Positions 15,510 through 57,156 of a stretch of 64,000 bases of DNA are shown here, piece after piece. The DNA is taken from assembly GCA_002633085.1 (NCBI GenBank), contig NSIV01000002.1:293602-357601 (forward strand). The letters are read 5' to 3'. The notes under the pieces are model-generated. The model was not told the origin of the DNA. It saw only the letters and a program-made list of their open reading frames with translations, and did no database searches. This DNA comes from Curvibacter sp. PD_MW3 (lineage in GTDB: Bacteria > Pseudomonadota > Gammaproteobacteria > Burkholderiales > Burkholderiaceae_C). Made by a program: the position numbers and the translations under genes. Every line of letters starts with the position of its first letter. The first letter of the stretch is position 1.

Positions 15510-16013
15510 ATGGCGAAACTCAACGTCAACGGCAAGGCCCGTGAATTCGAGGCCGAGCCCGACACCCCACTGCTGTGGGTGCTGCGCGAACAGCTCAGCC
15601 TGACCGGCACCAAATACGGCTGCGGTATCGCACAGTGCGGTGCTTGCACTGTGCACATCGATGGCGCACCGGTACGCAGTTGCGTGCGGCCGCTGGCCTC
15701 ACTCTCGGGTCAGGAAAAGATCGTCACCATCGAGGGCTTGTCGAAGAACGGTTCGCACCCGGTGCAAAAAGCCTGGGCCAAGCTGGACGTGCCGCAATGC
15801 GGCTTCTGCCAGAGCGGCATGATCATGGCCGTCACCGCCCTGCTCAAGACCAAGCCCAACCCGAGTGACGCCGACATCGACGCGGCCGTCACCAACATCT
15901 GCCGCTGTGGCACCTACAACCGGGTGCGCGCCGCCATCAAGGTCGTGGCCAAGGGTGGCGCCACCAAGATGGCCAAGCTGGCCATCCAGCACGCAGACGG
16001 GAGCACCACATGA
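15510..16013 (+). CDS. (2Fe-2S) subunit of molybdenum hydroxylase (IorA-like)
   Basis: 167-residue small subunit with two [2Fe-2S] clusters: plant-type C38, C43, C46 and C58, and the alpha-helical one C97, C100, C131 and C133. It matches the alpha subunits of isoquinoline 1-oxidoreductase and aldehyde dehydrogenases of this group. It has no signal peptide; partners of this type travel through the Tat pathway bound to the large subunit. The start ATG 15510 follows GAGGAGACACGAC. The stop overlaps the large-subunit start (ATGA at 16010). The 195 bp upstream gap contains no gene; a promoter there is likely but not resolved. Confidence 0.93.
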
Positions 16014-18193
16014 GCACCACCGCCCTGCAGCCCCAACTCTCCCGCCGCAGCTTTCTGGCCAGCACTGGCGCTGCCGCCGGAGGCCTGATGGTGAGCTTCC
16101 ACATTCCCTTTGCCAACGCCCAGGACAGTACGCCGGAAGTCAATGCCTGGGTGGTCATCCAACCCGATGACACGGTGGTGATCCGCATCGCCCGCTCCGA
16201 AATGGGCCAGGGCACACTGACCGGCCTGGCCCAACTGGTGGCCGAGGAACTGGAATGCAACTGGGCCAAGGTCACCACCGAGTACCCGACCCCAGGCCAG
16301 AATCTGGCGCGCAAGCGCGTCTGGGGGAATTTCGCCACCGGCGGCAGCCGCGGCATCCGTGAATCGCACGACTATGTGCGCAAGGGTGGCGCCATGGCGC
16401 GCATCCTGCTGGTGCAGGCCGCCGCTGACGGCTGGGGTGTACCTGCCACGGAGTGCGTGGCCGCCAACAGCGTGATCACGCACAAGGCCTCCGGCCGCAA
16501 AACCACCTACGGCAAGGTGGCTGCTGCCGCGGCCAAGCTCACACCGCCCGATGCCACCAGCATCACGCTCAAAGACCCGAAGACCTGGAAGCTCGCCGGC
16601 AAGCGGCTGGCACGGCTGGACACCGTCAAGAAGACCACGGGGGAACAAAACTACGGCATCGACCTACAGTTGCCAGGCCTCCTCAATGCGGCGATCAAGG
16701 ATTGCCCGGTCTTCGGCGGCAAGCTCAAGAACTTCAATGCCGCGGCGATCGAGGGTCGCCCGGGCGTGAAAAAAGTGGTGCAGGTCGGGGACAGCGCCGT
16801 GGCCGTGGTGGCCGATACCTGGTGGCGCGCCAAGACGGCGCTCGACGCGCTGCCGATCGAATGGGACTACGGCCCCAACGCGCGCATCTCGCAAGCTGAC
16901 ATCCAGCAAACGCTCAAGGAGGGCTTGGCCTTCACCGGTCCAACCGTGGTGGGCAACAGCAATGGCGACGCGCCGGCTGCCATTGCCGCGGCTGCGCGCA
17001 AGATCGAAGCCGTCTACACCTACCCCTTCCAGAACCACGCCACCATGGAGCCGATGAACGCCACAGCGCGCTGGACACCTGAGCGCTGCGAGGTCTGGGT
17101 GCCGACGCAAAACGGCGAGGCGGCGTTGGCCGCCGCAGCCGAAGCTTCGGGCCTGCCGCCGGCCCAGTGCGAGGTCTACAAGCTGTACCTCGGTGGCGGT
17201 TTCGGCCGGCGCGGACGCAGCGACTTCGTGACCCAAGCGGTACAGATCGCCAAGGCCATGCCGGGCACACCCATCAAGATGATCTGGTCGCGCGAGGAGG
17301 ACATGCAGCACGGCTCCTACCACCCAGTGACGCAGTGCAAACTCACCGCCGGCCTGGACGCGCAAGGCAACATCAGCGGCCTGCACATGCGCATCTCGGG
17401 CCAGTCCATCCTGGCCACAGTGGCGCCGCAGACCATCAAGGATGGCCGCGACATGCTGGTGTTCCAGGGCCTGAACACATCCGGCCCGGAAGCCTCGATC
17501 GGCTACAGCTTCCCCAACCTGCTGATCGACCACGCCATGCGCAACCCGCATGTGCCGGCCGGCTTCTGGCGTGGCGTCAACCTGAACCAGAACGCGATCT
17601 ATCTTGAGAGCTTCATCGACGAGATTGCCCACGCCACCGGCCAGGACCCACTGGCACTGCGCCGCAAGCTGATGGCCAATCACCCCAAGCACCTCGCGGT
17701 GCTCAATGCGGTGGCCGAACGCGCCGGCTGGGACAAGCCGGCACCCAAGGGGGTGTTTCGCGGCTTGGCACAGACCATGGGCTTCGGCAGTTATGTTGCC
17801 GCCTGCGCCGAAGTGTCGGTCCGTGACGACGGCCAGCTCAAGATCCACCGCATCGTGGCCGCCACTGACCCGGGGCATGCTGTCAACCCGCAGCAGATCG
17901 AAGCGCAGGTGGAAGGCTCCTTCTCGTATGGTCTGTCAGCGGCCCTGTTCGGTGAGATCACGGTCAAGGACGGTGCGGTCGAGCAGAAGAACTTTGACAG
18001 CTACCCCGTGGTGCGGATGGCCGACATGCCGAAGGTGGAAACCATCGTGTTGCCTTCCGGTGGCTTCTGGGGTGGCGTCGGCGAGCCCACCATTGCGGTG
18101 GCGGCACCCGCCGTGCTGAATGCAATCTTTGCGGCTACCGGCAAACGCATCCGCGAATTGCCGCTCAAGCAGCACAGCCTGAAACGGGCATGA
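16010..18193 (+). CDS. Tat-exported molybdopterin-dependent oxidoreductase, large subunit (IorB-like)
   Basis: 727-residue member of the xanthine-oxidase family with the single-polypeptide Mo-binding layout of isoquinoline 1-oxidoreductase beta subunit. A Tat signal SRRSFLAS is at 11-18 and cleavage is likely near ANAQ (about 37-40), so the enzyme acts in the periplasm. The glycine-rich GGGFGRRG motif and the C-terminal GVGEP with the catalytic Glu (E692) are intact. It hydroxylates a carbon with water-derived oxygen; the substrate is unknown. It overlaps both the iron-sulfur subunit and SoxX by 4 bp, so its natural electron acceptor may be the Sox cytochromes encoded next. Confidence 0.92.
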
Positions 18194-18684
18194 AGCAAGG
18201 CATGGCGGCATACCTGTCACGGGTGTGCCGCCTGTTCCCACGGGTTGGCGCCATGACCTGGCTGTCTCTCATGGCCCTGTCGGCCACCGCACAAACAACC
18301 GTACCCTCAGGCGGTTTCCATGTGGTGGACGACGGCATTCCCGAGCCCTTGAGCAGCGCACCGGGGGATGCGACGCGCGGGCGCGGCATCGTCGCCAACC
18401 GCCAGCTGGGCCTGTGCTTGCTGTGCCATCGCGGCCCCCTACCGGAGGAACGCTTCCAGGGCACTCTGGCGCCCGACCTTGCCGGCACCGGCCGCCGCTG
18501 GACCGCCGCACAACTGCGGCTGCGGCTGGTCGATGCGCGTCGCCTCAACCCTGACAGCATCATGCCTGCTTATTACCGCAGTGAGGGACTGACCCGCGTT
18601 GGCAACGCCTGGCAGGGCAAGACCCTGCTGTCTGCGCAGCAGATGGAAGACGTGGTGGCTTACCTGCTCACATTGAACGACTGA
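18190..18684 (+). CDS. soxX: SoxX-like monoheme cytochrome c
   Basis: 164-residue periplasmic cytochrome. The signal peptide ends near residue 34 (ATAQ). One heme site, C76-LL-C79-H80, and the methionine ligand M125 in DSIMPAYY, with the SoxX-type surroundings (GNCxxCH-like block, the RVGNAWQGK end region). In the Sox pathway SoxX pairs with SoxA to conjugate thiosulfate onto SoxY. It starts inside the last codons of the molybdenum subunit (ATGA at 18190). Confidence 0.85.
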
Positions 18685-18691
18685 ACCAACC

Positions 18692-19156
18692 ATGAACTCA
18701 ACCTCCAAAACCCGACGCCAGTTGCTGGCCAGCAGCGCCGGCCTGGGCGCCTGGCTACTGGTGCGGCCTGCCGCAGCCGCACCGGATGAACTGGCCGCGG
18801 CCATCAGCGCCTGGAGCGGTGGCGCCTCGGTGCAGCGCGGCCGCGTCAAGCTCGACATCGCACCGCTGGTGGACAACGGCAACACGGTGCCGATCAGCGT
18901 CAGCGTGGCGAGCCCGATGACCGTAGCCGATCACGTCACCGCTATTGCCATCTTCAACGAGCGCAACCCGCAGCGCGACGTGGCCCGTTTCACACTGGGC
19001 CCGCGTGCCGGCCTCGCCGCTGTGTCCACGCGCATCCGGCTGGCCACCACGCAGAAACTGGTGGCGGTGGCACGCATGAGCGACGGCAGTTACTGGTCGC
19101 ACACGGTCGAGGTGATCGTGACGCTGGCCGCCTGCCTGGAAGGCGAGGAGAGTTGA
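18692..19156 (+). CDS. soxY: SoxY-like sulfur carrier with non-canonical C-terminus
   Basis: 154-residue periplasmic carrier. A Tat-type signal (TRRQLLASSAGLGAW) leads a SoxY domain. In the Sox system the substrate is carried on the Cys of a C-terminal GGCGG swinging arm. Here the strand EVIVTL is kept but the tail reads AACLEGEES: the Cys (C148) is present, the flanking glycines are lost and six residues follow it instead of two. The partner SoxZ starts 2 bp downstream. The call as SoxY rests on position, the Tat signal and the overall fold pattern. Confidence 0.82.
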   Translation: MNSTSKTRRQLLASSAGLGAWLLVRPAAAAPDELAAAISAWSGGASVQRGRVKLDIAPLVDNGNTVPISVSVASPMTVADHVTAIAIFNERNPQRDVARFTLGPRAGLAAVSTRIRLATTQKLVAVARMSDGSYWSHTVEVIVTLAACLEGEES

Positions 19157-19158
19157 AC

Positions 19159-19479
19159 ATGGCACGCACCCTCATCAAGGCCCCGGCCAGCGCCCGGCGC
19201 GGCGAGATCATCGCCATCAGCACCATCATCGGCCACCCGATGGAAACCGGTTTTCGCCCTGGTGCCGACGGCCAGGTGCTGCCGCGCGACATCATTCAGC
19301 GCTTCACCTGCCACTACAACGACGAGCTGGTGTTCAGTGCCGAGCTGTTTTCAGCCATTGCCGCCAACCCCCTGATTGCCTTCCACACCGTGGCCACGGC
19401 CAGTGGCACGCTGCGCTTGCACTGGGAAGGTGACCATGGCTTCAGCCACACGGAAAGCGTGACCCTCAACGTGACATGA
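19159..19479 (+). CDS. soxZ: SoxZ sulfur oxidation carrier partner
   Basis: 106-residue protein matching SoxZ throughout: the opening VKIRAP-like ARTLIKAPASARRGEI, the HPMETGFRP block and the end strand FSHTESVTLNVT. SoxZ has no signal of its own and is co-exported with Tat-targeted SoxY as a heterodimer. The ATG at 19159 was chosen over TTG 19153. Its stop overlaps the soxA start by 4 bp. Confidence 0.9.
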   Translation: MARTLIKAPASARRGEIIAISTIIGHPMETGFRPGADGQVLPRDIIQRFTCHYNDELVFSAELFSAIAANPLIAFHTVATASGTLRLHWEGDHGFSHTESVTLNVT

Positions 19480-20252
19480 AGCACTGGCGAGCCGCTCTTC
19501 TTTTTGGTGCCGTGCTGGCATGCCATGCGCAGACCCAGCCCATGGCGCAGCCCGAACCGCGTCATTCGGGGTTCGACTTCATGGGCACGGCGGTGCAGAC
19601 CATGCAGCGCGACGATGCCCTTAACCCGGCCATGCTGTGGGTCAAACAGGGCGAGACCCTGTGGCACACGCCGGCGGGCGCGAGTGGCAAAACCTGCGCC
19701 AGTTGCCATGGTGCCGTCAGCAGCCTGCGCGGCGTCGCCACGCGCTTCCCGGCCTTCGATGCCGACTTGCAGCGGCCCATCAATCTGGCGCAACGCATCA
19801 ACCAGTGCCGGCAGAACCGGCAGCAGGCCGAGCCCTGGCGGCTGGAAAGCCCGGACCTGCTGAGCCTGGAAAGCTTCATCGCGCTGCAGTCGCGCGGCCT
19901 GCCCATCGCACCGCCAGCCGATGCACGCCTGCAATCGTTCGTGGAGCGCGGCCGGGCACGCTACCAGCAACGCCTGGGGCAACTCGACCTCTCATGTGCC
20001 CAGTGCCACGATCAGCGCTGGGGCCAGCGTTTGGGGGGCACGGTCATCCCACAGGCGCATCCCACCGGCTACCCGCTGTACCGGCTCGAGTGGCAAGGAG
20101 TTGGTTCACTGCAACGCCGGCTGCGCAACTGCCTGAGCGGCGTACGCGCCCAGCCCTGGCCTTATGGGGCAACGGAGCTGGTGGAGCTGGAGCTGTATCT
20201 GGCGGCACAGGCCCGCGGCATGACGTTGGAGAGCCCCGCCGTTCGGCCTTGA
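19476..20252 (+). CDS. soxA: SoxA-like diheme cytochrome c
   Basis: 258-residue periplasmic c-type cytochrome with signal peptide to about residue 18. Heme sites C74-AS-C77-H78 and C174-AQ-C177-H178; the structural Cys of the INQCR block is C111, and the active-site Cys is C219 in RNCLSGVRAQPW, whose persulfide ligates the catalytic heme. All features of a working SoxA are kept. With SoxX it should form the c-type thiosulfate (or related thiol) conjugating enzyme. It closes an operon that has no soxB, soxC or soxD. Confidence 0.92.
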   Translation: MKHWRAALLFGAVLACHAQTQPMAQPEPRHSGFDFMGTAVQTMQRDDALNPAMLWVKQGETLWHTPAGASGKTCASCHGAVSSLRGVATRFPAFDADLQRPINLAQRINQCRQNRQQAEPWRLESPDLLSLESFIALQSRGLPIAPPADARLQSFVERGRARYQQRLGQLDLSCAQCHDQRWGQRLGGTVIPQAHPTGYPLYRLEWQGVGSLQRRLRNCLSGVRAQPWPYGATELVELELYLAAQARGMTLESPAVRP

Positions 20253-52952: not shown

Positions 52953-52974
52953 CCGGCAGCCTCAAGGCTGCCGG
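52953..52974. terminator. bidirectional hairpin between sodC and mocA
   Basis: CCGGCAGCC (52953-52961) and GGCTGCCGG (52966-52974) close a TCAA loop. It starts 7 bp after the sodC stop and overlaps the final codons of the convergent mocA gene. No long T tract follows. Confidence 0.5.
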
Positions 52975-53513
52975 GTCTGCAAGAGTTCCTGCACCCGCTG
53001 CAGGTCCTGCACGGTGTCGATGTCGGTCACGCAACCGGCATCGTCCACTATCAATTCAGTAGCGCCGTGCGCTTTGACGACAAGGGCTGCCCCTTGATTT
53101 CCCTCCAACCCCATGAGCTGCGGCCCGCAGACGCGGGCAAAGCGCACCGGGTGGCCGTGCCGCCCCTGGTACACCGGCCGCACCACCGCCTGCTGCGCCG
53201 GGGCGGCTGCCACGCGGCGAATGGTTTCGGCTTGCAGCAGCGGCAAGTCGGCTGGCAGGATCAGCCAGGCGGACGCATCGGGGTTGGCACGCACCGCTGC
53301 CGCAATCGAGTCCCCCATGCCGGGCAAGCCGGTCTCTTCCAGATAAAAAGGCAGCCCGCTGGCGCGCACGGCATCCAGCGTGTGCTGCAGCACGGTCTTG
53401 TTTCCGAGCAGCGCCTGCAGCTTGTGTGTGCGACCACCCGAGGCCAGAAAACGCTCGCCCTGGCCGGAGGCCAGCACGATCACCACCGGCTGCAAGGACG
53501 CTTCAGGCCGCAT
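52962..53513 (-). CDS. mocA: molybdenum cofactor nucleotidyltransferase (MocA-like)
   Basis: 183-residue NTP-transferase (MobA-like fold) that converts molybdopterin to the cytosine dinucleotide form needed by enzymes of the xanthine-oxidase family. Nucleotide motif LASGQGERF at 14-22 and K31, the central ILPADLPLLQ at about 84-93. It overlaps nothing but abuts xdhC (TGA directly followed by ATG), ending the four-gene molybdenum operon. Confidence 0.85.
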   Translation of the reverse strand: MRPEASLQPVVIVLASGQGERFLASGGRTHKLQALLGNKTVLQHTLDAVRASGLPFYLEETGLPGMGDSIAAAVRANPDASAWLILPADLPLLQAETIRRVAAAPAQQAVVRPVYQGRHGHPVRFARVCGPQLMGLEGNQGAALVVKAHGATELIVDDAGCVTDIDTVQDLQRVQELLQTRQP

Positions 53514-54515
53514 TCAGACGACGGTGCAACCGGGTGTGCGAGCCACCGCGGCGCTGACCGCGTTCTTGACCTGCACGATCTCAGCCACGATCGACACCGC
53601 GATCTCGGCCGGCGTCTTGGCGCCGATGCTCAGGCCCACCGGGCCATGCAGGCGTGCCAGTTCATCGGCACTGAGGTCGAAGTGCTCGGCCAGGCGTTGT
53701 TTGCGCGTCGCCTGGTTGCGGCGTGACCCCAAAGCCCCCACATAGAAGGCCGCCGATTTGAGGGCTTCGAGCAGTGCCATGTCGTCGAGCTTGGGGTCGT
53801 GCGTCAGGGCCACGATGGCGGTGTGGGCGTCGGGCAGCAGTTCGCGCACCACGTCGTCGGGCATACCTGCCACGCGCTGCACGCCCTCGATCTCCAGCAC
53901 CGCCGCATACTCTTCACGCGGGTCGCACACCAGCACCTCGAAGTCGAGCATGCCGGCCATGCGCGCCACCGCCTGCGACAACTGGCCGGCACCGATGAGC
54001 AGCAGGCGCCACTTGGGGCCGAACACCGTGGTCAGGGTCTGGCCGTCGAACGCCATGCCCTGGCCGCGCACCGCGTCGGCCAGCACCACCTCGCCGCTTG
54101 CCAGATGGAGCGTGCGCGCCAGCAGCCGGTGTTCAGCCGTGCGCGCGAGCAGCGTCTCGACCCAGCTCACCTCGCGCAGCGGCTCCTGCACCAGCCGCAA
54201 CGTGCCGCCACAGGGCAGGCCGAAGCGTGCCGCCTCCTCCTTGGTCACACCGTAGGCAATGAGCGACGGCTTGGCAGAGGTCTGATCTGCGGTGCCGGCC
54301 GCCAGCGCGGCCTTGGTACGGGCGATCAGGTCGTCCTCGACACAGCCGCCCGACACCGACCCGCTGACCACACCGTCGTCACGCACGGCCAGCAGAGCCC
54401 CCGGCGGGCGCGGCGCGCTGCCCCAGGTTTCCACCACCGTGACCAGCGTGACCGCATGGCCGGCGCGTTTCCAGGCCAGCGCATCGGCCAGCACACGCAG
54501 ATCAAGACTTTCCAT
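53514..54515 (-). CDS. xdhC: XdhC/CoxI-family molybdenum maturation factor
   Basis: 333-residue chaperone that sulfurates or inserts the molybdenum cofactor into xanthine-oxidase family enzymes. N-terminal XdhC_CoxI block (WGSAPRPPGALLAVRDDG, SGSVSGGCVEDDL) and the C-terminal Rossmann-like part (LLIGAGQLSQAVARMA, VALTHDPKLDDMAL, IGAKTPAEIAVSI). It is 26 bp downstream of the large subunit. Confidence 0.93.
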   Translation of the reverse strand: MESLDLRVLADALAWKRAGHAVTLVTVVETWGSAPRPPGALLAVRDDGVVSGSVSGGCVEDDLIARTKAALAAGTADQTSAKPSLIAYGVTKEEAARFGLPCGGTLRLVQEPLREVSWVETLLARTAEHRLLARTLHLASGEVVLADAVRGQGMAFDGQTLTTVFGPKWRLLLIGAGQLSQAVARMAGMLDFEVLVCDPREEYAAVLEIEGVQRVAGMPDDVVRELLPDAHTAIVALTHDPKLDDMALLEALKSAAFYVGALGSRRNQATRKQRLAEHFDLSADELARLHGPVGLSIGAKTPAEIAVSIVAEIVQVKNAVSAAVARTPGCTVV

Positions 54516-54541
54516 TCACCACCTCTTGGGTCCTAGGATTT

Positions 54542-56680
54542 TCAGGCTTGGCGAATCGCCTCGGGCGACAGCGGCAGCTTGCGCACACGCTTGCCGGTGG
54601 CCGCGGCCACCGCATTCGCAATCGCCGGCACCACCAAGGCGGTCGCCGGCTCGCCGATGCCGCCCGGCTTTTCGCTGCTCTCGACCAGTACGATATCAAT
54701 GATCGGCACTTCGTGCATGCGCACCATGGGGTAATTGTTGTAGTTGGTCTGCAGCACACGGCCTTTGTCCAGCGTGATCTCCTGCATCAGGGCCGACGAC
54801 ATGCCGAAGGCAATGCTGGACTGGATCTGCGCCTCCACCGTGTCCGGGTTGACCATGCGGCCCAGATCGGCGGCCACGGTGACGCGGTGCACCGTAACCT
54901 GACCGTCTTTCACCGAGACCTCGGCCACCTGCGCCATGTAGGTGTCGTAACCCTCCATCAGCGCGATACCGCGCGCGCGGCCGGCCGGCAAGGGCTGGCC
55001 CCAGCCGGCCTTCTCGGCAGCGAGCTTGAGCACGTTGGCAAAACGTGGCTTGTTCTTCAGCAGCGCCAAACGATACTGGTACGGGTCCTTGCCCGCCGCC
55101 AGCGCCAGTTCGTCCATGAAGCTCTCGTTGGCGAAGGCGTTCATGTTGTGGCTCACCGCGCGCCAGTAACCGACGCGCATGCCACTGTCGTGGATCACCA
55201 GGTCATGCTGCGTGTTGGGGATCTCGTAGGCCGCCACGGCCGCCTCGGCCATGAAGGGGTCGAGCGTGTCCTTGGGCAGACCGAAGGCGCGCTGCGTGAC
55301 CGACTGCGAGGTGACCTTGAACTGCAGCGCCACCGGCATGCCCTGCGCGTCCAGACCGGCCTGCACCTGGTTCAAGCCCAGCGGACGGTAGAAGTCGTGT
55401 GTCATGTCGTCCTCGCGCGACCACAGCAGCTTGACCGGTTTACCCACGGCTTTGGAGATCTGCGCCGCCTGTACGATGAAGTCCAGCTCCAGCCGGCGGC
55501 CGAAACCGCCGCCGAGGAAGGTGGTCTTGAGCGTCACGTCTTCCGGCTTGATGCCCAGCACGCCGGCCACGGCGCCGTGTGCGCCCTGCTGGAACTGGGT
55601 CGGCCCCACCAGCAGGATCTTGCCGTCCTTGTAGTGGGCGGTGAAGTTCATCGGCTCCAGCGGCGCGTGCGCCTGCATCGGCGAGATGTACTCGGCCTTG
55701 ACCACCTTGGCGGCGCCCTTCATGGCCTCGGCCACATTGCCCACCGGCTTGCCGATGGGCAGCACCTTGCCACTGTCAGCGGCAGCGCGCGTGCTGGCCA
55801 GCACGGTGTTGTGATCCAGCGCGGCACCCGGGCCTTCGTCCCACTGCACGCTCACGGCCTTGCGCGCCTTCTGTGCCTGCCAGTAGCTGCTGGCCACCAC
55901 GGCCACACCGTCGTTGACCTGCACCACGTCGAGCACGCCCGGCATGCCTTTGGCCTTGGAGGCGTCAAAGCTCTTGACCTTGCCGCCGATCACCGGGCAC
56001 TGCTCGATGCTGGCGTAGACCATGCCCGGCAGCTTGACGTCGATGCCGAACTCGGCCGTGCCATTGACCTTGGCCGGTGTGTCCAGGCGCTTGACGCGTT
56101 GGCCGACAATTTTGAAATCCTTCGGGTCTTTCAGCGCCACCTTCTCCGGCACCGGCAGCTTGGCGGCGGCAGCCGCCAGTGAGCCGTAACTGGCCTTTTT
56201 CCCCTTGGGGCCGAGCACCATGCCGTTCTCGGCGCGCAGCGTGCTGCGGTCCACCTTCCACTTGTCGGCGGCAGCGGAAATCAGCATCTCGCGCACCTGG
56301 GCACCGCCCACGCGCAGCTTCTCCCAGCCATCACGCACCGAGGTGGAACCACCAGTGATCTGCGCGCCCAGCAGTGCGTTGACGTAGACCGCCGCCGGCG
56401 GCGCAATCGCCACCTTGATCTGCTTGATGTCCACGTTGAGTTCTTCGGCGATCAGCATGGGCATGGAGGTGTAGACGCCCTGCCCCATTTCGGAGCGTGC
56501 CGAGATCAGCGTGATGGTGTTGTTGTCGGCAATGTGCACCCAGGCATTGGGGGTGTAGACGGTGCCGGCCGCCTGGGCCTCGACCTTGGCGCCGGGCAGG
56601 GCAAAGCCCATGATCAGGCCGCCGGTGGCAAGCGTTGAGGTCTTGAGGAAATCGCGACGGGAGGTTTCGAGTGTGGTCAT
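54542..56680 (-). CDS. Tat-exported molybdopterin-dependent oxidoreductase, large subunit (IorB-like, second copy)
   Basis: 712-residue periplasmic Mo enzyme. Tat signal SRRDFLK at 7-13, cleavage near VEAQ. Mo-binding motifs GGGFGRRL and the C-terminal GIGEP with the catalytic Glu are present. It is homologous to the 16010-18193 protein but clearly distinct, and unlike it has maturation factors beside it. Substrate unknown; N-heterocycle or aldehyde oxidation is the family activity. Confidence 0.93.
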   Translation of the reverse strand: MTTLETSRRDFLKTSTLATGGLIMGFALPGAKVEAQAAGTVYTPNAWVHIADNNTITLISARSEMGQGVYTSMPMLIAEELNVDIKQIKVAIAPPAAVYVNALLGAQITGGSTSVRDGWEKLRVGGAQVREMLISAAADKWKVDRSTLRAENGMVLGPKGKKASYGSLAAAAAKLPVPEKVALKDPKDFKIVGQRVKRLDTPAKVNGTAEFGIDVKLPGMVYASIEQCPVIGGKVKSFDASKAKGMPGVLDVVQVNDGVAVVASSYWQAQKARKAVSVQWDEGPGAALDHNTVLASTRAAADSGKVLPIGKPVGNVAEAMKGAAKVVKAEYISPMQAHAPLEPMNFTAHYKDGKILLVGPTQFQQGAHGAVAGVLGIKPEDVTLKTTFLGGGFGRRLELDFIVQAAQISKAVGKPVKLLWSREDDMTHDFYRPLGLNQVQAGLDAQGMPVALQFKVTSQSVTQRAFGLPKDTLDPFMAEAAVAAYEIPNTQHDLVIHDSGMRVGYWRAVSHNMNAFANESFMDELALAAGKDPYQYRLALLKNKPRFANVLKLAAEKAGWGQPLPAGRARGIALMEGYDTYMAQVAEVSVKDGQVTVHRVTVAADLGRMVNPDTVEAQIQSSIAFGMSSALMQEITLDKGRVLQTNYNNYPMVRMHEVPIIDIVLVESSEKPGGIGEPATALVVPAIANAVAAATGKRVRKLPLSPEAIRQA

Positions 56681-56691
56681 GGTGTCTCTCC

Positions 56692-57156
56692 TCAGGCGTT
56701 GCGCAGGCTGGCAGCCGCATCTTTGATGGCGGCCTTGATGCGGCCATAGGTGCCGCAGCGGCAGAGATTGCCGCTCATGGCCTGGTCGATGTCCGCATCG
56801 CTCGGATTCTTGTTCTTGTCCAGCAAGGCGGCCGCGCTCATGAGCTGGCCAGACTGGCAGTAGCCGCACTGCGGCACGTCGTGCTTGATCCACGCCACTT
56901 GCAGCGGGTGCGTGTTGTTGCGCGAGAGGCTCTCCACCGTGGCGATCTTCTTGCCCGCCACCGCCTCCACCGGTGTCCGGCACGAGCGCACCGGCTGGCC
57001 GTTCACGTGCACGGTGCAGGCGCCGCACAGTGCAGCACCGCAACCGAACTTGGTACCGGTCAGGCCCAGTTCATCGCGGATCACCCACAGCAAGGGGGTG
57101 TCGGGTTCGGACTTGGCGGCGACCGCCCGACCGTTGACGTTCAGCTTGATGCTCAT
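56692..57156 (-). CDS. (2Fe-2S) subunit of molybdenum hydroxylase (IorA-like, second copy)
   Basis: 154-residue small subunit with the two [2Fe-2S] clusters ([13 protein letters not shown] with a following SC, and QCGYCQSG with NLCRCGTY). It has no own signal and is presumably exported with the Tat-targeted large subunit, which starts 11 bp downstream. GAGGAG precedes ATG 57156. A TATATA -10-like element is at 57173-57178 and the palindrome 57235-57255 lies upstream. Confidence 0.93.

Follow-up and report, generated by a model that had tools for sequence, protein, structure and literature searches.

In the Sox pathway of thiosulfate oxidation, SoxAX joins thiosulfate to a cysteine of the SoxYZ carrier as a disulfide, probably via a heme cysteine, with a rival copper proposal also noted (PMC4423706), and one paper makes the case that the true carrier form of SoxYZ is a sulfane adduct (PMC5336275). 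Starkeya novella has a second sox cluster, described in 2013: soxX2Y2Z2A2F2 (Snov_1975-1982) combines such parts with a molybdenum (Mo) enzyme of the xanthine oxidase (XO) family and contains no SoxB or SoxCD (PMC3797975). Its expression by quantitative reverse-transcription PCR was very low on glucose, methanol and thiosulfate; in proteomes, SoxAX2 and SoxYZ2 went undetected and one SoxF-like subunit was present at a low level, from which the authors infer no functional significance in those conditions while leaving room for others (PMC3797975). The available parts of that account give no function, arm motif or wider distribution. Here we analyse a six-gene operon at positions 15510-20252 of a 64,000-nucleotide stretch of DNA from Curvibacter sp. 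PD_MW3 (contig NSIV01000002.1, positions 293,602 to 357,601; hereafter the window), which, like the S. novella cluster and compared with it by description only, unites SoxX, SoxY, SoxZ and SoxA with an XO-family Mo enzyme and has neither SoxB nor SoxCD. The S. novella cluster has a SoxF-like flavocytochrome c, as do the loci of many relatives, whereas the window operon is without flavocytochrome genes.

The architecture is already in print for one organism, and the carrier family is already named by NCBI; for the Mo-SoxXYZA set as a whole, no published function was found in the open-licence literature, where absence is weak evidence. We find that the operon is a real, widespread and dedicated system; established directly are which genes it contains and in what order, their conservation and that of the catalytic residues, and its occurrence without SoxB. 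Our tentative interpretation, which we rate as somewhat short of probable, is a dedicated periplasmic oxidation system linked to a sulfur carrier, in which SoxXA would load SoxYZ and the Mo enzyme would replace SoxB and SoxCD. A sequence-only reading of this DNA had proposed a "distinct periplasmic oxidation system", and the analysis supports a system distinct from the classical thiosulfate cycle. That reading did not note the changed SoxY arm, the flavocytochrome c genes at many related loci or the earlier description in S. novella.

Composition and conservation of the operon

The six genes of the operon are as follows.

15510-16013, + strand: gene for the iron-sulfur (FeS) subunit; Pfam Fer2 and Fer2_2; small subunit of an XO-family Mo hydroxylase
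16010-18193, + strand: gene for the Mo-binding large subunit (MoL); MoCoBD_1 and MoCoBD_2; twin-arginine-type leader
18190-18684, + strand: soxX; TIGR04485 at 77.7 bits (cut-off 61); c-type cytochrome with a single CXXCH
18692-19156, + strand: soxY; TIGR04487 at 214.7 bits (cut-off 172); AACLE arm, twin-arginine-type leader
19159-19479, + strand: soxZ; PF08770; TIGR04490 at 75.9 bits, just under the cut-off of 76
19476-20252, + strand: soxA; TIGR04484 at 224.3 bits (cut-off 110); diheme c-type cytochrome

Neighbouring genes overlap by 4 bp at 16010, 18190 and 19476, with gaps of 7 bp at soxX/soxY and 2 bp at soxY/soxZ. The sequence-only reading gave coordinates, gene order, overlaps and gaps exactly to the base, and the co-expression of the six genes that it claimed is borne out as likely; a promoter and terminator scan returned no signal exceeding shuffled sequence. 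Its name SoxY holds for a SoxY-type carrier and not for a true SoxY: by curated NCBIfam cut-off the window protein is a "SoxY-related AACIE arm protein" (TIGR04487, which covers it but names the carrier only), and assignment to true SoxY (TIGR04488) was rejected at 94.5 bits, under the cut-off of 125. Nor were all six proteins periplasmic by signal, as had been stated. Read by eye, leaders are twin-arginine-type in the Mo subunit and SoxY and Sec-type in SoxX and SoxA, and none was seen in the FeS subunit or SoxZ, which presumably are exported by hitch-hiking with their partners (the FeS subunit with the Mo subunit). An RRx[FL] motif falls within the first 45 residues of 34/35 Sox-linked Mo subunits, the exception being L029.

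Two [2Fe-2S] domains, Mo cofactor-binding domains and a conserved GVGEP glutamate mark the enzyme as a member of the XO family, in which types free of flavin adenine dinucleotide (FAD) exist; no gene for an FAD subunit, such as xanthine dehydrogenase and PaoABC have, is found among the open reading frames (ORFs) of the operon. The closest solved structures are 8gy3_B for the FeS subunit and 8gy3_C, an aldehyde dehydrogenase large subunit, for MoL, from an organism that we take to be Gluconobacter. In the Gluconobacter-type aldehyde dehydrogenase the third subunit is a multiheme cytochrome c; the window operon has Sox cytochromes in its place, and contains no cytochrome gene, a multiheme third subunit included, besides soxX and soxA. 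A predicted structure of the Mo subunit was set aside (mean pLDDT 64.6, with values below 50 in, e.g., 393-404, 481-524 and 684-688).

A survey of named genomes with SoxY gave at least 32 loci. Among those listed, L033 (GGCGV) and L034 (GGCGG) were set aside by their arms, leaving 30 AACIE-type loci, seven of which end at a contig edge (L005, L008, L011, L022, L026, L027, L031). All 23 uncut loci in this set have FeS-MoL-SoxX-SoxY-SoxZ-SoxA on one strand and in that order, interrupted in L028 and L029 by FccAB, which sits between MoL and soxX. This order is beyond chance, and it passes the check in other genomes that the sequence-only reading had proposed. L033 itself encodes a SoxYZ (1551-2412) with the GGCGV arm and with no SoxX or SoxA match on its 7.9-kb contig; its SoxY falls short of the cut-off of the AACIE model (142.9 against 172) and clears that of the true SoxY model (134.8 against 125). 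A different SoxYZ-type carrier with the arm end SGCGM occurs at L110:1384-6722 (G128) and at L061-L064; in G128 it adjoins two flavoproteins resembling flavocytochrome c sulfide dehydrogenase, and neither SoxX nor SoxA was matched at the locus.

SoxY proteins above the TIGR04487 cut-off occur in 21/150 genomes of the source genome's GTDB family and in 15/398 genomes of its phylum, the source genome being included in both counts. The short loci of the 21 family genomes hold MoL with soxXYZA in 19 cases; L051 ends at a contig edge, and G074 is an exception discussed below. The operon ranges from Burkholderiales to Hyphomicrobiaceae and Roseomonas-type alphaproteobacteria, with hosts in the Mo-subunit tree drawn from Comamonadaceae, Oxalobacteraceae, Sphaerotilaceae, Rhodocyclaceae, Hyphomicrobiaceae, Roseomonadaceae and Acetobacteraceae, and it is found in genomes from <2 Mb to >8 Mb. 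Seven plasmid records matched, and three of the four examined carry copies (Methylobacterium sp. NMS14P, Neorhizobium galegae and Roseomonas marmotae), the fourth (Methylosinus) being a soxYZ-soxB locus and not the Mo-linked system. On the N. galegae plasmid (L157:3629-5807), the Mo gene lies across two frames and is missing from the incomplete gene table shown.

Genes upstream of the operon are globin-, NnrS- and ferredoxin-like (named by eye); we treat them as unrelated because they are absent from the neighbour clusters common to at least three loci. Recurrent neighbours elsewhere, i.e., a long-chain acyl-CoA ligase (c10), an NlpC/P60 protein (c17) and a TctC-like protein (c6, by eye), were judged lineage-bound or incidental. 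In L149 and L150, XdhC-like and MoaA-like genes come after the eight-gene cluster, downstream of soxA, with a ModE-like gene as well in L150 (by eye); such genes would be fitting for a Mo cofactor requirement.

Conserved residues and a second branch

Residues were counted, in window numbering, in alignments of the operon rows (at most 59) and of 4-5 rows from a second branch described below. The SoxY arm cysteine, C148, is present in 59/59 operon and 5/5 branch-two rows, and the residue two positions after it is E in 58 operon rows, D in one, and D in all five branch-two rows. The window arm reads AACLEGEES, not GGCGG, and a tally over 54 operon loci gives AACIE in 29, AACLE in 12, AACVE in nine, and PACVE, AACID, SACLE and AGCVE in one each, with GGCGG in 0/54. 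In SoxA, both CXXCH motifs are kept in 56/56 operon rows and in every branch-two row that reaches them, as is C219 (56/56, and 4/4 branch-two rows that reach it), which is the heme-ligating cysteine, the alignment with the SoxA chains 1h31_A and 2c1d_A extending through Cys219; Cys111 is found in 55/56 and 4/5 rows, respectively. SoxX conserves C79, H80 and M125 (56/56 and 5/5) and C76 (55/56, the remaining row beginning after C76, and 5/5). The FeS subunit conserves C38, C43, C46, C58, C97, C100, C131 and C133, each in 30/30 operon and 4/4 branch-two rows.

The operon has, as in canonical Sox, SoxXA with CXXCH hemes and an active-site cysteine, although the window SoxA scores 163 bits against 1h31_A versus 48 against the cell's own canonical SoxA. 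We infer loading by SoxXA because the SoxY arm cysteine and the SoxA heme-ligating cysteine are the residues that loading is thought to need (PMC4423706); with both conserved, the loading chemistry looks intact even as the GGCGG end is lost. These cysteines favour a loading role of SoxXA over one as electron acceptor only. That SoxXA is a mere acceptor for a periplasmic aldehyde or heterocycle hydroxylase, in place of the Gluconobacter-type multiheme subunit and with SoxYZ structural or left over, would fit the 8gy3 chains as nearest solved relatives and an operon whose only cytochromes, both c-type, are SoxX and SoxA. It would make conservation of the SoxY arm and the SoxA active-site cysteine needless, however, and SoxYZ is retained in all 23 complete loci listed and in both branches, so that we consider this explanation unlikely.

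In MoL, the GVGEP motif spans 689-693, and its E692 is conserved. The residues F686, W687, N524, R511, N368 and E370, close to this motif and around W520-R521, are approximately fixed in the Sox-linked MoL clade and present in at most 10% of 22 paralogues; some, e.g., F686-W687 before E692, also set the window MoL apart from 8gy3. These clade-specific residues suggest a substrate unlike that of the paralogues.

The aldehyde dehydrogenase-like character of MoL is compatible, too, with an aldehyde relay, in which the SoxY thiol would trap an aldehyde as a hemithioacetal that the Mo enzyme would take to a thioester, by analogy to the carrier of pyrroloquinoline quinone (PQQ) dehydrogenases. A SoxYZ-like carrier does stand beside quinoprotein dehydrogenases (PMC12997753), and this system (TIGR04557) resembles the operon in tying a SoxYZ-type carrier to a periplasmic dehydrogenase and not to thiosulfate. 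A weak similarity to TIGR04557 also speaks for the relay, although at 49.8 bits for the window SoxY and 39.1 for SoxZ it is far under the cut-off of 140. The quinoprotein-associated system differs in having a fused SoxYZ, a PQQ enzyme and a SoxH-like hydrolase (PMC12997753), whereas soxY and soxZ are separate genes here. No SoxH-like hydrolase is seen among the operon ORFs, relatives' flanks not having been scanned for one; SoxXA and the flavocytochrome c pair found at related loci would be left unexplained; and the roles proposed in the available parts of that report are maturation or protection, not a relay (PMC12997753). We regard the relay as quite unlikely.

The second branch has an FeS-MoL pair tail to tail with soxX-soxY-soxZ-soxA at four loci (L104, L107, L108 and L109, in G029, G064, G130 and G110), their MoL scoring 926-958 bits against the window MoL; at a fifth locus (L111, in G019), on a contig fragment, just soxXYZA is present. 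One genome, G130, carries both branches (L048 and L108). The branch-two SoxY arm ends in SSACFD, and the two of these SoxYs scanned on TIGR04487 fall well short of its cut-off of 172, at 58 and 60. The SoxY frames at L107:5893-6234 and L108:5577-5918 span 114 amino acids, with no export leader by eye; that of L111 has a longer N-terminus containing an RR motif. Because branch two keeps the same parts, the link between Mo subunit and SoxXYZA has survived a changed layout and arm.

A tree of 58 Mo subunits, which excludes operon rows below ~650 residues, places 31 operon members in one clade and the four branch-two members in another, the two being sisters (100/99) with 22 paralogues outside. 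Across 26 loci, distances of SoxA, SoxY, SoxZ and the FeS subunit correlate significantly with those of MoL. The nearest outgroup of the Sox-linked MoL is L105:5273-7996 (G017), with an FeS match adjacent and no Sox match nearby, which possibly represents the state before recruitment of the Sox genes, or after their loss.

Canonical Sox genes and flavocytochrome c

Searches with SoxB, SoxC and SoxD of the same genome match no ORF in the 64-kb window (phmmer, E <= 1e-3), which confirms across the window ORFs the absence of soxB and soxCD reported from the sequence alone and supports, for this locus by itself, the claim that the classical thiosulfate pathway cannot run from it. The source genome (G000; 94.8% complete, 17 contigs) does hold a complete soxCDYZAXB cluster on contig C14 (L065): SoxC (TIGR04555, 592 bits), SoxB (863 bits), a true SoxY with a GGCGG end (154.1 bits), SoxZ, SoxA, SoxX, and a SoxD-like cytochrome named by eye, for which NCBIfam gave no match at E <= 1e-20. 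This canonical cluster shares with the operon the SoxXA loading cytochromes and a SoxYZ cysteine carrier, and differs in its arm (GGCGG versus AACLE) and in the presence of SoxB and SoxCD. The genome's single further SoxY lies inside it, and SoxB and SoxC have no match in the genome outside contig C14. Since the canonical cluster is complete there and SoxB and SoxC are found only there, with none in the window, the operon is an additional system, and Sox thiosulfate oxidation is probably available to this cell through the C14 genes. Genes that by eye resemble form II RuBisCO, a LysR-type regulator and fructose bisphosphatase are found some 6 kb away from the C14 cluster and suggest a chemolithoautotrophic capacity.

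A cytochrome c and a flavocytochrome c sulfide dehydrogenase flavoprotein adjoin the operon in 8/30 AACIE loci among those listed, the flavoproteins carrying PF21706 and PF09242 in the three scanned. Placements of the pair, including one further locus, are as follows.

After soxA: L010, L014, L018, L025
Before the FeS gene: L016
Between MoL and soxX: L022, L028, L029
Divergent from the operon: L116

In ten longer loci from phylum-sample genomes, the flavoprotein stands between MoL and soxX in six (L146-L150 and L153), with no separate FccA match in L147, and is absent from L151, L152, L154 and L155; the pair is also present at the locus on three plasmids. In a 22-row tree with few unlinked members, linked flavoproteins fall in separate clades, and an unlinked copy of the source genome is nested among betaproteobacterial ones; the separate clades are suggestive of recruitment of the pair more than once. 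The source genome encodes two pairs of this type elsewhere (C11, C15).

A second FeS/Mo hydroxylase pair lies in the window within 52962-57156 on the - strand (FeS, 56692-57156; Mo, ~54548-56671), its Mo subunit being Tat-type and 41% identical to the operon MoL; XdhC-like and MobA-like genes (named by eye) follow, with cofactor maturation as their probable role. This second enzyme bears on a protection or repair role, in which SoxXA, SoxYZ and flavocytochrome c would shield the Mo=S ligand from sulfide or supply persulfide sulfur for periplasmic re-sulfuration. XO-family enzymes need a sulfido ligand, and such a role would account for the missing SoxB and SoxCD; it would also accord with the sulfane adduct argued for SoxYZ (PMC5336275) and with the protection discussed for the quinoprotein-linked carrier (PMC12997753). 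The other Tat-type Mo hydroxylase of the window has no such partner beside it, however, and we judge re-sulfuration very unlikely.

A proposed route and its standing

The substrate class, step order, electron route and arm specificity of the following route are inferred. SoxXA would couple a thiol or persulfide to the AACxE-type arm cysteine of SoxYZ, as the conserved residues suggest, and the pool of cytochrome c would receive two electrons from it. Standing in for SoxB and SoxCD, the Mo hydroxylase may then oxidise the compound at a carbon, or possibly a sulfur, centre, whether the compound is already bound to SoxYZ or about to be loaded, with electrons leaving via the [2Fe-2S] clusters to a c-type cytochrome. 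Flavocytochrome c sulfide dehydrogenase, whose genes lie inside or next to the operon in some species and at other sites in this genome, could oxidise the remaining sulfane or sulfide. The GGCGG end has given way to an acidic residue in most lineages seen and, in one family, to LIG or VIG; its loss would bar the carrier from the thiosulfate cycle. In its most specific form, an organosulfur compound (or persulfide) would be hung on the AACxE-type SoxYZ by SoxXA, hydroxylated there by the Mo enzyme and relieved of its sulfane by flavocytochrome c, which we consider possible but doubtful.

Several observations weigh against a carrier-linked route of this kind. XO-family enzymes usually oxidise carbon, and since the nearest solved relative of MoL is an aldehyde dehydrogenase, the link to sulfur rests on the neighbouring genes. 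L105, with no adjacent Sox genes, has the same clade residues (F686, W687, N368, E370 and R511) except N524, so that these residues do not track Sox genes as such. The acidic arm residue is missing in four f57 loci (AACLIG, AACVIG). The distances of MoL and SoxX show no significant correlation (r 0.15, a value reached in 329 of 2000 permutations; 26 loci), SoxX starts being poorly bounded. G074 (L160) has AACIE-type soxXYZA with no adjacent Mo subunit, and no Mo subunit of the Sox-linked clade was found in its genome (best match 39% identical; assembly 90% complete); G083 (L112) has soxYZA and no soxX match on a contig of only 4.3 kb. The flavocytochrome pair was not seen near 22 of the 30 AACIE loci listed, several of which have short flanks, and was not found in the 64-kb window. 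SoxB, which is above cut-off in 84/150 family genomes, is commoner in carriers than in others (18/21 versus 66/129; Fisher p 0.004, or 0.028 with five genomes added) and is present in all five branch-two genomes (G029, G064, G130, G110 and G019), so that there may be some dependence on, or a lifestyle common with, thiosulfate oxidation.

SoxB is nevertheless enriched among carriers without being required. It is missing from three of the 21 family carriers (G119, G006 and G011); the five additional operon-type genomes, which lie under the TIGR04487 cut-off, divide into G066, G069 and G030 without SoxB and G116 and G083 with it; and SoxB occurs in 8/10 further phylum-sample carriers, both f57 genomes being without. 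These counts bear on the proposal that SoxXA2 and YZ2 are spare thiosulfate isoenzymes that supply the canonical SoxB and SoxCD of another locus; the complete C14 cluster and the SoxB enrichment, branch two included, speak in its favour. Against it stand the carriers without SoxB, the absence of GGCGG from every tallied operon locus, and the S. novella cluster, hardly expressed even on thiosulfate (PMC3797975). In Bradyrhizobium diazoefficiens, moreover, earlier work cited in PMC5748708 found only soxY1 (sox locus I) of two soxY genes essential for thiosulfate oxidation, its soxY2 being only a putative member of the window family. We find the isoenzyme explanation highly improbable.

Inorganic sulfur is the main cargo known for SoxYZ. 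Should the dedicated sulfur-carrier-linked system proposed here be real, the combination of SoxYZ and SoxXA, without SoxB, with a probably carbon-oxidising Mo enzyme would extend this carrier to another substrate class, perhaps organic sulfur, in a carrier family that is not rare at the family and phylum frequencies given above. Because sox genes serve as markers of thiosulfate oxidation, genomes with only the Mo-linked operon could be miscalled; likewise, a large SoxY phylogeny discarded sequences without "GGC" (PMC11237559), by which most of the AACxE-arm family would be left out. If the organosulfur reading is true, the operon would provide carrier-bound periplasmic oxidation of organic sulfur.

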